Of a DNA stretch of 64,000 nt, positions 33,449 to 37,590 are shown in pieces. A program made the translations under genes and the position numbers. Under the pieces are notes generated by a model. That model had not been told where the DNA came from. It was given only the letters and a program-made list of their open reading frames with translations, and did no database searches. Each line of letters opens with the position of its first letter. Position 1 is the stretch's first letter. The stretch spans positions 62,001 through 126,000 of the forward strand of contig DAIDGV010000010.1 of NCBI GenBank assembly GCA_027452205.1, in the 5' to 3' direction. This DNA comes from a candidate division FCPU426 bacterium. Its GTDB lineage: Bacteria; Oederibacteriota; Muellerivitia; Muellerivitales; Muellerivitaceae.

Positions 33449-34012
33449 ATGCCTGATTATAAGAAAGCTTACGTCACCGTTATGGTCGATGACCTCGACA
33501 AGTCGGTGGAGTTCTACGGCAGTCTCTTAGGTCTATATGAGGATCTGCGGTTCGGCGACAGCTGGGCCGAAATGACCACGAAGGGCATCACCATTGGCCT
33601 TCACCCCAAGAAGATCGGGGCCCGGCCCAATTATGGCGCCTCCGCAAACTCCGGCTCCTCGGCCGGGCGCAACCAAACCGCGTCCCTCGACTTGAAGGTC
33701 GAGGGACAGGTGGCCCCTCACGGCACTTCTTCAAGTTCCAGTTCTTCCGCTAGCGCCAGCGCTTCGGTTAGCTCCAGCACCTCGGCAGGGCACGACCAAA
33801 AGTCTTTCTTTTCCTTAAAGGTCGAAGGCAAGGTGGCCCACCCAGCCCCGCCCCAACTGTCCATCGGATTCGAGGTGGAAGATATCTGTAAGACCGCGAA
33901 AGAACTAGAAGCCAAGGGCATCCGGTTCCACTTCCAAGAGAACGATGTGAACATCCTGGCTTTCTTCGTGGACCCGGATGGAACCCCGCTTTATTTAACG
34001 CAGGTACGGTAA
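33449..34012 (+). CDS. VOC/glyoxalase-fold protein with a serine/alanine-rich insert
   Basis: A 187-residue protein whose two ends form a vicinal-oxygen-chelate module: YVTVMVDDLDKSVEFYGSLL with TKGITIGLHP (residues 5-55) and SIGFEVEDICKTAKELEAKG with FFVDPDGTPLYLTQ (137-187). Between them is an 80-residue low-complexity insert with a Ser/Ala tract (93-112). The tract is flanked by two copies of a segment of about 20 residues (71-89 and 112-130): SAG[RH][ND]Q followed by LKVEG[QK]VA. VOC members include glyoxalases and fosfomycin/bleomycin resistance proteins; the metal ligands are not clear here. GGAGGGG precedes the ATG. The insert is unusual for the family. Confidence 0.75.
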   Translation: MPDYKKAYVTVMVDDLDKSVEFYGSLLGLYEDLRFGDSWAEMTTKGITIGLHPKKIGARPNYGASANSGSSAGRNQTASLDLKVEGQVAPHGTSSSSSSSASASASVSSSTSAGHDQKSFFSLKVEGKVAHPAPPQLSIGFEVEDICKTAKELEAKGIRFHFQENDVNILAFFVDPDGTPLYLTQVR

Positions 34013-34156: not shown

Positions 34157-35752
34157 TTACCAGTCGGATGTTTCTGATTCGCCAACGTTTCTTATTAAAT
34201 CGACGTGACCTTGGATCAGGGGGAAAATTACGTCTACGATTTTAAAAGGATTATTTTTGTCGTAGCTTGTGGCGTCGACAATAACATCGGCAAGTTTATG
34301 CTTATTGCCGGTATAAATATCGGGAAGACTTATTTCTGTTATCCAAATTAAATCTGGATATTGGTTTAAACGAGTTCTTTCTGCAACTTGTAATTGAGAA
34401 CCGGTCGGGACAATAAATTTCTCAACGTAGCTAATATATTCTTCCCTTTTTTGGAGAATTGTTCTGGCTACGATGTCTGCTGAGTTGATGGCTTTAATAA
34501 CTCTGGGGTTCCATTTTGGGCCCAGTTGCAAACGGCCAGTCACTATCAAAAACTTAAAGTTTTTAATGGCGATTTGCTCTGCATCATAACCAGGTAATAT
34601 TACTTTATCCGGCACAATAACGATGGCCATTGTTGCGTGGAGATTTGGGTTTTTTGCTGGAACAACTAAGTTTCTTAGGTTCTCTACGGGAAGTGTGCTG
34701 TAAATTCCGAAATTGTCATCGTTGATTATAAAGTGGTCGGTATAAGAAGCTGCGTTTATATATTCTGTAATTGGATATCCGCCATACATTTTATGAGCTT
34801 TTGGTGCCCAACGGTCCGAGTTCATCGTGTGGCCTATGATTGTTACCACGTGCGATAGCGAATTGTTACTATTTAGGTTCCAGCCTTGCACACCCAGAAT
34901 AATCGGACATCTTGATTCTATGAATGGATATAAGTAGTGGTCGTAGTCAATTCCTGGATTTTGCGTGAAGTTAAGTTCTAACACATTAACTCCAAAATGT
35001 TTTGCAACTGTCTTTATTTCGATTAGTGAAAGACCATTATCTAGGGTGGGAGTTCCACTGTAGTGTCCAAGTTTTCTTTTTGTTAAATCGATACCCAGGT
35101 GTTCATTAATATCCTTGTTTGTTATTTTTGTTGTAGTCCAAGGCGCGCTGTTTACAGCCATCCTTAAACAAGCGTGAGCGCAAACATTTGTGAGGTCGTT
35201 CTGTTGAGCGAAAAAACTTCCGATTATTTTAAAGTTTTTTGCCGTTATTGAATCGTTTCCGAGGGAGGTTTTAAATTCTCTGACAGTGTGAAAGTAGTAA
35301 TTCATCAATGGTTCTTTATCGCTTGAACCATCCTTTTTTAAAAAAGGTATTCGGACTACGGCTTCATGTAGTTTGCTTCGCTTTCTTTCATTTGGGTCTG
35401 GCAATGTGAAAGTGGTTATGACGGTATATCCCAAGATTGTTTCGTCATTTAATTCAGAATCATTCCAATTGCCGGAGGTTGGCCAGACGCTAAAAAAAGT
35501 TAGTCTTGTGACTCGAAGATCGACTGTTCCGCCACAACGAGTTTCGGCAGCGCTTTTTTCATATATTAGTTCAGCGTTTAGTTCCAACTCCTCTTCTACG
35601 CAGCATTGTGCGTTCATTTTTCGCATCAAGGTTAAGAAACGATGCATTGGGGGATTGTTTGGCGACAATCTATCGGCTGTGTCAAAGAACGAGCAATTTG
35701 ATTGATCGCACTTAGTTGTTGTCGGTGTTGCTTTTGATTTACCGTTTTCCAT
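34157..35752 (-). CDS. C39-like papain-fold cysteine peptidase domain in a 531-residue AT-rich protein
   Basis: I do not recognise the whole protein, but its middle matches the peptidase C39-like pattern. Residues 182-200 read AQQNDLTNVCAHACLRM, close to the C39 form Q-x(5-6)-C-GPACLxM, making Cys191 the likely nucleophile. LSHVVTIIGHT supplies His (301 or 308), and HFIINDDNFG the third residue. Residues 1-170 include several cysteines (CDQSNC, AQCC, RCGG); residues 360-531 are mixed alpha/beta. There is no signal peptide, membrane segment or ABC-transporter fusion. GAGG precedes the ATG. The gene is clearly richer in A+T than its neighbours, a sign of transfer. A 64-residue peptide gene lies just upstream on the same strand. 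Confidence 0.65.
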   Translation of the reverse strand: MENGKSKATPTTTKCDQSNCSFFDTADRLSPNNPPMHRFLTLMRKMNAQCCVEEELELNAELIYEKSAAETRCGGTVDLRVTRLTFFSVWPTSGNWNDSELNDETILGYTVITTFTLPDPNERKRSKLHEAVVRIPFLKKDGSSDKEPLMNYYFHTVREFKTSLGNDSITAKNFKIIGSFFAQQNDLTNVCAHACLRMAVNSAPWTTTKITNKDINEHLGIDLTKRKLGHYSGTPTLDNGLSLIEIKTVAKHFGVNVLELNFTQNPGIDYDHYLYPFIESRCPIILGVQGWNLNSNNSLSHVVTIIGHTMNSDRWAPKAHKMYGGYPITEYINAASYTDHFIINDDNFGIYSTLPVENLRNLVVPAKNPNLHATMAIVIVPDKVILPGYDAEQIAIKNFKFLIVTGRLQLGPKWNPRVIKAINSADIVARTILQKREEYISYVEKFIVPTGSQLQVAERTRLNQYPDLIWITEISLPDIYTGNKHKLADVIVDATSYDKNNPFKIVDVIFPLIQGHVDLIRNVGESETSDW

Positions 35753-36848: not shown

Positions 36849-37433
36849 GATTTTACCAACCGTTGGTAAATCAGCCGCCCCCAAGGCCCAAGTTTTTGGG
36901 AATCTCAAAAACCTACCCCCTGGTTTTACGCAACTTGCGTAAAACATCCCCCTGGCTCCCCGGTTTTACCAACCGTTGGTAAAACCACCCCGGTCGTTCT
37001 TTGGTAGCTGAAGAATCTTCAGTTTTGCGTCCACTTTTGACACCGGCGGTGTCACTAAGGTCAAAAATATAGGTTTTTGGCGATGGGACCAGGCCACTAG
37101 GCAGACCAAAAGGTCAAAGTTTGAACCTTTTACTTGGTCTTGCGTCCAATTAAGTTACTTCCCGTAACTTTTGACCCTCCTCAAGAGCCCAGTTTTACCA
37201 ACGGTTGGTAAAACCACCCGGCCAATCGTTAAATGTTTTAACGATTCGGGGGTCTCAAGGCGACTCAAATGTTCAGAGTCTGAACGTTAGACTGGCCCAT
37301 CGTTAACCGAGTTAACGCCTGGGGGCTGGATAGGGCCCAGTTTTATGACTGGGTTATAAATGCAAACCTCGGTTTTACGAAGCCTTCGTAAAACCGCCCC
37401 GTCAAAGGGTGTCCATTCTTCAGCGGCTGAAGA
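36849..37433. repeat. Array of 15 phased short palindromes (non-coding)
   Basis: Fifteen inverted repeats lie in 585 bp of the gene-free stretch 36825-37590. Centres: 36861, 36893/4, 36934, 36974, 37015, 37046, 37119, 37161, 37203, 37235, 37278, 37309, 37351, 37383, 37425. Steps are 31-33 or 40-43 bp, once 73. Nine have a single central base and perfect arms of 7-12 bp, e.g. arms GTTTTACGCAA (36923-36933), GGTTTTACCAAC (36962-36973), CTGAAGA (37008-37014), TGACACCG (37038-37045), GGTTTTACGAAG (37371-37382), TCTTCAGC (37417-37424). Three (37235, 37309, 37351) have 3-bp centres; that at 37351 includes one G-T pair; the one at 37119 is imperfect. TTTTAC-type units are followed by runs of C. Many stops in all frames argue against coding. 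Confidence 0.9.
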
Positions 37434-37590
37434 GTCAGGTCTATCCCCATTTAGCCAGTGTCCAAAAATTGCTATTTTTTTTGCGGGTTCCTTATATTGT
37501 GCCATCCCCAATAGCGATAATCTATATCCACTCGAACGGCTGCCCCCGGACCTGTTGTGGCTTCAAATACAACATTCACTGGGGGATTCC

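Follow-up and report, generated by a model that had tools for sequence, protein, structure and literature searches.

Helically phased palindrome arrays and gene-internal palindromes of long ParB-like genes in a candidate division FCPU426 bacterium

A non-coding array of short palindromes in helical phase was confirmed at 36849-37433 of the window, the 64,000-nucleotide stretch of DNA analyzed here (contig C10:62001-126000 of a 2.89 Mb genome). Such arrays recurred in the same genome and in sister genomes, and they are a double-stranded DNA signal. A new feature linked to them was a palindrome at one codon position inside long ParB-like genes, most of them for proteins predicted to be membrane-anchored. 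The arrays may be phased sites on which dimeric, membrane-anchored proteins related to ParB, KorB, and Noc dock on one face of the DNA, a reading to which we give about an even chance and in which binding is inferred from the links between palindromes and genes.

The array was flanked by a gene for a YdeI/OmpD-associated protein (OmdA, PF13376; 36243-36824, plus strand) and a gene with a cyclic nucleotide-binding domain (PF00027; 37360-38067, plus strand), in agreement with the neighbors named in an earlier sequence-only reading, where the second gene was put forward as a possible target of the array. The longest open reading frame of the latter runs into the array, and its true start probably lies near 37590. 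Promoter-like hexamers matching the consensus occurred immediately past the array (37469-37498, plus strand), with 0.9 such matches expected by chance. From left to right, the palindromes were TTTACCAACcGTTGGTAAA (36852-36870, centre 36861, A type), GTTTTTGggaatctCAAAAAC (36892-36912, centre 36902), GTTTTACGCAAcTTGCGTAAAAC (36923-36945, centre 36934), GGTTTTACCAACcGTTGGTAAAACC (36962-36986, centre 36974, A type, recurring in arrays on contigs C2, C3, and C23), CTGAAGAaTCTTCAG (37008-37022, centre 37015), TGACACCGgCGGTGTCA (37038-37054, centre 37046), the imperfect AAAaGgTCAAAgTTTGAaCcTTT (37107-37131, centre ~37119), AAGTTACttcccGTAACTT (37152-37170, centre 37161), preceded by a linker CTTGCGTCCAATT common to other arrays, GTTTTACCAACgGTTGGTAAAAC (37192-37214, centre 37203, A type), AATCGTTAAAtgtTTTAACGATT (37224-37246, centre 37235), GTTCAGAgTCTGAAC (37271-37285, centre 37278), CGTTAACcgaGTTAACG (37301-37317, centre 37309), the imperfect TTTATgACtggGTtATAAA (37342-37360, centre ~37351), CGGTTTTACGAAGcCTTCGTAAAACCG (37370-37396, centre 37383), and TCTTCAGCgGCTGAAGA (37417-37433, centre 37425). 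Elsewhere in the window, a glyoxalase-like reading frame (33449-34012) contained a serine/alanine-rich low-complexity stretch in an apparent duplicated segment, and a reading frame of 531 aa (34157-35752) had no Pfam match.

The steps between centres were 41, 32, 40, 41, 31, 73, 42, 42, 32, 43, 31, 42, 32, and 42 bp; the sequence-only reading had listed the first two in swapped order and all others correctly. It had counted fifteen palindromes, of which a fixed-rule palindrome finder recovered 13, every one with an odd centre, the two at ~37119 and ~37351 being only imperfect. It had also described them as different in sequence; several types were indeed present, but five shared, in three versions, a core GGTTTTAC(C/G)NA..., and the TTCAG type was also represented more than once. 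Comparison with shuffled sequence, which had been proposed as a check, gave a mean of 0.66 palindromes and a maximum of 3 in dinucleotide shuffles of the array DNA (n = 200) against the 13 real ones, while a stricter score gave 6 real palindromes vs. 0.02 in shuffles. An origin by chance or as a base-composition artefact is refuted by these shuffles, and with a spacing phase matched in none of 5000 controls its probability is practically nil.

Adjacent distances between the centres of odd-centred palindromes in 13 arrays (n = 60, the effective number being lower since the arrays were located by similarity, are not an unbiased list, and are partly interrelated) showed a period of 10.5 bp with R = 0.747 and an offset of -0.04 bp, a phase reached by 0/5000 jittered controls. 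R was 0.717 with one count per distance per array, the phase was little altered by array-by-array omission, and 10.5 bp was the global maximum of R over periods of 5-40 bp. The sister genomes alone, in which the same spacing had been proposed as a further check, gave R = 0.82 at 10.5 bp (n = 24). Within the window, the detected adjacent distances had R = 0.89 at 10.5 bp, and the absolute centres over 564 bp had a best period of 10.46 bp (R = 0.78; 3/5000 jitter controls). Ordinary palindrome pairs from a genome sample had R = 0.03 (n = 74). Centres were odd in 76/82 array palindromes vs. 189/451 palindromes elsewhere. Besides three and four turns, steps also spanned five, six, or between eight and thirteen turns, so that the phasing is more than two favored unit lengths. 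Together, phasing and odd parity indicate that something on one face reads the array in its double-stranded form, and this one-face reading is well supported. The suggestion in the sequence-only reading of proteins bound on one face, or of a nucleoid or partition site, was backed by this zero-offset 10.5-bp phasing across 13 arrays in five genomes and by the association with ParB-like genes described below.

Folded RNA, the other suggestion made from the sequence, was disfavored. Transcription of the array into a non-coding RNA of many hairpins, for instance one that titrates a protein or attenuates transcription, would agree with plus-strand folding far above that of shuffles (z -11.3) and with compensating changes in the arms. 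Any palindrome array folds in this manner, however, and both strands fold well (z -6.0). The period was that of B-DNA with zero offset (R = 0.72 at 10.5 vs. 0.49 at 11, as for the A-form), centres were nearly always odd, and G-U-type mismatches were not enriched (2 G-T vs. 5 A-C in 694 pairs). No known structured RNA was matched at gathering level in Rfam (best E = 0.28) and the same palindromes lie inside coding genes, leaving a hairpin RNA very improbable.

Similarity searches identified five more arrays in the genome of the window, on C2, C3, C23 (two arrays), and C26, as well as arrays in the sister genomes G001, G004, G005, and G006. In paralogous arrays, including tandem copies, the linkers were kept and some palindromes were identical while others were wholly swapped at the same place (alignment A1). 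Symmetry and centre were retained where the inner arms had changed completely on both sides, as expected if shape is read in place of sequence. This would suit a nucleoid or structure-reading protein on short cruciform or hairpin tips that are phased for cooperative binding, the ParB-like genes being themselves targets, and the phasing at the DNA level fits as well. Nevertheless, outer arms were conserved within palindrome types (GGTTTTAC, TTGAATTG, and TTTAT), implying that sequence is read in part, and orthologous ParB-like genes keep an identical palindrome. Arms of 7-13 bp extrude poorly, which also counts against reading of DNA shape, and we regard this explanation as improbable. 

Several arrays had particular features of their own. 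At L192 3404-3575 (G004:C154), five palindromes GGTGTTAACCgGGTGAACACC spaced 42-43 bp apart formed a sopC-like tandem array that runs off the contig end. At L190 5797-5958 (G005:C45), two long palindromes with common outer arms CTATTCTTCCAATTAA and different tips surrounded an TTGAATTG-type element, with spacings of 53 and 63 bp (5 and 6 turns). The paralogous arrays of C2 and C3 (L020 6660-7050 and L022 7455-7880) adjoined RHS/YD-repeat-like reading frames and had in common a long hairpin CTAGGCCCCTGGG...CCCAGGGGCTTAG. A CRISPR origin was rejected as the palindromes differ, the spacing alternates, and identical repeats with unique spacers were not found. The REP/BIME elements with RAYT are likewise interspersed imperfect palindromes between genes, whereas here different sequences stand side by side in strict phase; the sister genome G006 has arrays but no match to PF01797 (Y1 transposase), and the exclusion of CRISPR and REP in the sequence-only reading stands. 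Neither PLSDB nor INPHARED gave a match that would point to a plasmid or phage origin. Lone copies of TTTTACCAACSGTTGGTAAAA were present in Pedobacter, Burkholderiales, and Magasanikbacteria, but they are protein codons (FLPTVGK and similar) and were set aside as probable coincidence. A copy in moeA of G005 resembled an insertion but was judged native, given almost identical codons in the moeA gene of G004.

In other FCPU426 genomes, the CCCTTATT-palindrome element was found within ParB-like reading frames. When eight genomes of the family were searched for ParB_N (PF02195), canonical ParB proteins of ~290 aa and long paralogs of ~490-880 aa were obtained. A palindrome was present at one codon position, right after the helix-turn-helix, in 16/17 long ParB-like genes (a count including C9 and the broken C23 copy of the same genome as the window, plus C108 and C43), where the 16 include one with arms of only 7 bp and one broken gene. 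No palindrome occurred at that place in the long gene G002:C329, in any of five canonical ParB genes examined (0/5), or in either of two shorter ParB-domain genes, and the distant ParB-like gene G029:C155 had none. A ParA reading frame was present at the canonical parB loci of G002 and G001. The palindrome centre fell on the second codon base in 14/14 genes measured, and synonymous recoding of the encoded peptide reached the observed symmetry with p values of 7e-5 to 2e-3 per gene. Orthologs keep one palindrome (ACTTGCGCnGCGCAAGT in G003 and G005; TTTATAACAnTGTTATAAA in G001 and G003), while paralogous genes differ in theirs, and up to ~35 extra residues were encoded at the palindrome place in some ParB-like genes and few in others. 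Neither such arrays nor gene-internal private ParB-like palindromes were described in the literature searched, for which coverage was incomplete. RES-domain and caspase-like (Peptidase_C14) genes were located beside two ParB-like genes (L077 5000-5923 and L079 4940-6766) and might indicate a toxin or defence context.

Palindromes also occurred in genes with an ORF6N domain, as perfect odd-centred palindromes at conserved SQ-I/F-V/A codons (LRSQIVTL, LISQIAIS, and LMRSQFATA) at L080 7267-7293 and 7501-7561, L074 about 8315, L145 791-819, and L239 162-188. Their sequence varied between genomes with arms of up to ~16 nt, and the upstream part of the L080 frame held two further palindromes 36 bp apart. 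As these genes, which lie in the same genomes, behave like the ParB-like genes, such palindromes may extend beyond ParB.

The linked proteins contain a ParB_N domain (PF02195) followed by a helix-turn-helix and the ParB fold. For the C3 protein, sequence matches to PDB structures of ParB, Spo0J, and Noc were obtained, and its structural model, confident for residues 1-222, matched Noc, ParB, and KorB. The palindrome codes for the end of the helix that follows the recognition helix and for the next loop. A hydrophobic, membrane-like segment was predicted in 10/12 long paralogs tested and 0/2 canonical ParB. Distances between palindromes correlated with distances between anchored helix-turn-helix segments (Mantel, rho 0.46, p<0.0002), a correlation that may reflect relatedness because distances computed from the remainder of the protein correlated too (rho 0.37). 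Viral contigs held no relative of the ParB-like protein.

Genes and arrays had segments in common. Non-coding elements were homologous to ParB-like gene segments, and the homology took in native ParB codons at either side (alignment A4); these flanks suggest a direction from gene to array. Within the genome of the window, the C24 gene matched the C23 arrays over 68 bp (90%), the C9 gene matched the C26 array over 65 bp (89%), and the ParB-like gene at contig C3:42664, encoded on the minus strand at locus L023 5478-7172, contained the window palindrome centred at 36934 over 21 bp (100%). Only ~5/15 window palindromes resembled one in a known ParB-like gene of that genome, and the G006 arrays had no match to any known ParB-like palindrome of G006.

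The native gene flanks on array elements are as found in copied gene pieces and, together with the mixing of unrelated palindromes within one array, the limited matching of window and G006 arrays to genes of their own genomes, and the palindrome-free genes G002:C329 and G029:C155, they count against docking of ParB-like proteins. The flanks favor instead a process in which recombination or a small mobile mechanism copies pieces of 20-70 bp into intergenic DNA from ParB-like genes whose palindrome sits in a tolerant loop, template switching keeps the arms complementary, and the arrays are accumulations and not platforms. Paralogous arrays in which some palindromes are unchanged and others are replaced whole inside conserved linkers point the same way, as do the ORF6N genes nearby with their comparable behavior. 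Perfect stems arise, are maintained, and are repaired through template switching (PMC8794818), and palindromes within coding sequence have precedents (PMC6649704; PARCEL, PMC2996958). The palindromes of Nematomorpha mitochondria, PARCEL, and the Rickettsia palindromic elements resemble the present ones in being perfect palindromes inside reading frames with genome dispersal, but they are not described as helically phased nor as limited to one codon position of genes for DNA-binding proteins. Copying explains the symmetry but does not predict a zero-offset 10.5-bp phase across unrelated linkers in five genomes, and it does not predict why the genes involved are confined to the ParB-like and ORF6N kinds, both of which encode DNA-binding proteins. 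No array was present in 392 kb of further DNA sampled from the genome of the window, and overall this explanation appears rather unlikely.

A ParB-like binder of the arrays was favored since the ParB-like paralogs are most closely tied to the array palindromes, and by this reasoning the chance that the binder is ParB-like is about equal to that of its being something else. In the proposed mechanism, dimers of long ParB-like paralogs, carrying a ParB N-domain, a helix-turn-helix, and in most cases a membrane segment, would dock at intervals of three or four helical turns and thus all on one face of the DNA. As nearly every long ParB-like gene holds a private palindrome and arrays hold copies of some such segments, each paralog may bind its own palindrome. 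The resulting nucleoprotein cluster of the ParB/KorB/Noc type would probably tether, silence, or insulate its locus at the membrane, and membrane tethering of the array by ParB-like proteins is suggested by the predicted segments.

A close plasmid counterpart is the F centromere sopC (parS-F, bound by SopB = ParB-F), which comprises twelve 43-bp repeats with ParB-F inverted repeats (PMC6238139). The likeness lies in a cluster of short palindromes, in sopC each serving one dimer of the ParB family, at a spacing of about four turns (43 bp), comparable to the 42-43 bp of L192, but the arrays here have differing palindromes per array, an odd centre, and steps of three or four (also five and six) turns, and they are chromosomal and away from canonical parB. 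Palindromic sites in helical register, as in a centromere, were found in all 13 arrays, whereas a single recognition sequence was not, with several palindrome types per array. We know of no centromere that mixes palindromes of unrelated sequence as the window array does. The KorB operator TTTAGC(c/g)GCTAAA of plasmid RK2 is odd-centred and is located 32-33 bp centre-to-centre from its partner operator at korAp (PMC2680271). These OB sites are similar in being odd-centred palindromes of a ParB-family protein with a comparable spacing, although they have one sequence and are scattered in promoters, unlike the arrays here. In Bacillus, the ParB paralog Noc has altered DNA specificity and carries DNA to the membrane (PMC4331003, PMC7383237). 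Noc relies on an amphipathic helix and on 16-bp sites (NBS) that are dispersed and have one sequence, compared to a membrane segment, known by prediction only, and phased arrays in which the palindromes vary here. To our knowledge, KorB has no reported private site in the codons adjacent to its own helix-turn-helix.

The palindrome system is unusual in that the sequence turns over fully while symmetry, parity, and helical register persist, both in genes and in arrays. If template switching maintains the palindromes, they would be a clear case of mutation keeping a structure inside coding genes. More tentatively, and with doubt outweighing confidence, membrane-anchored ParB paralogs may each encode their own recognition palindrome, at a set codon position next to the helix that reads DNA, co-diversify with it, and seed phased arrays of multiple specificities, which would constitute a new class of chromosome-membrane docking or silencing site. 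Should the proteins bind the palindromes encoded in their own genes, each gene would give away its own site, and the DNA-recognition codes of the ParB family could therefore be legible from sequence alone across many paralogs. If true, the arrays would represent a natural, membrane-linked binding platform of multiple specificities in an uncultured phylum.
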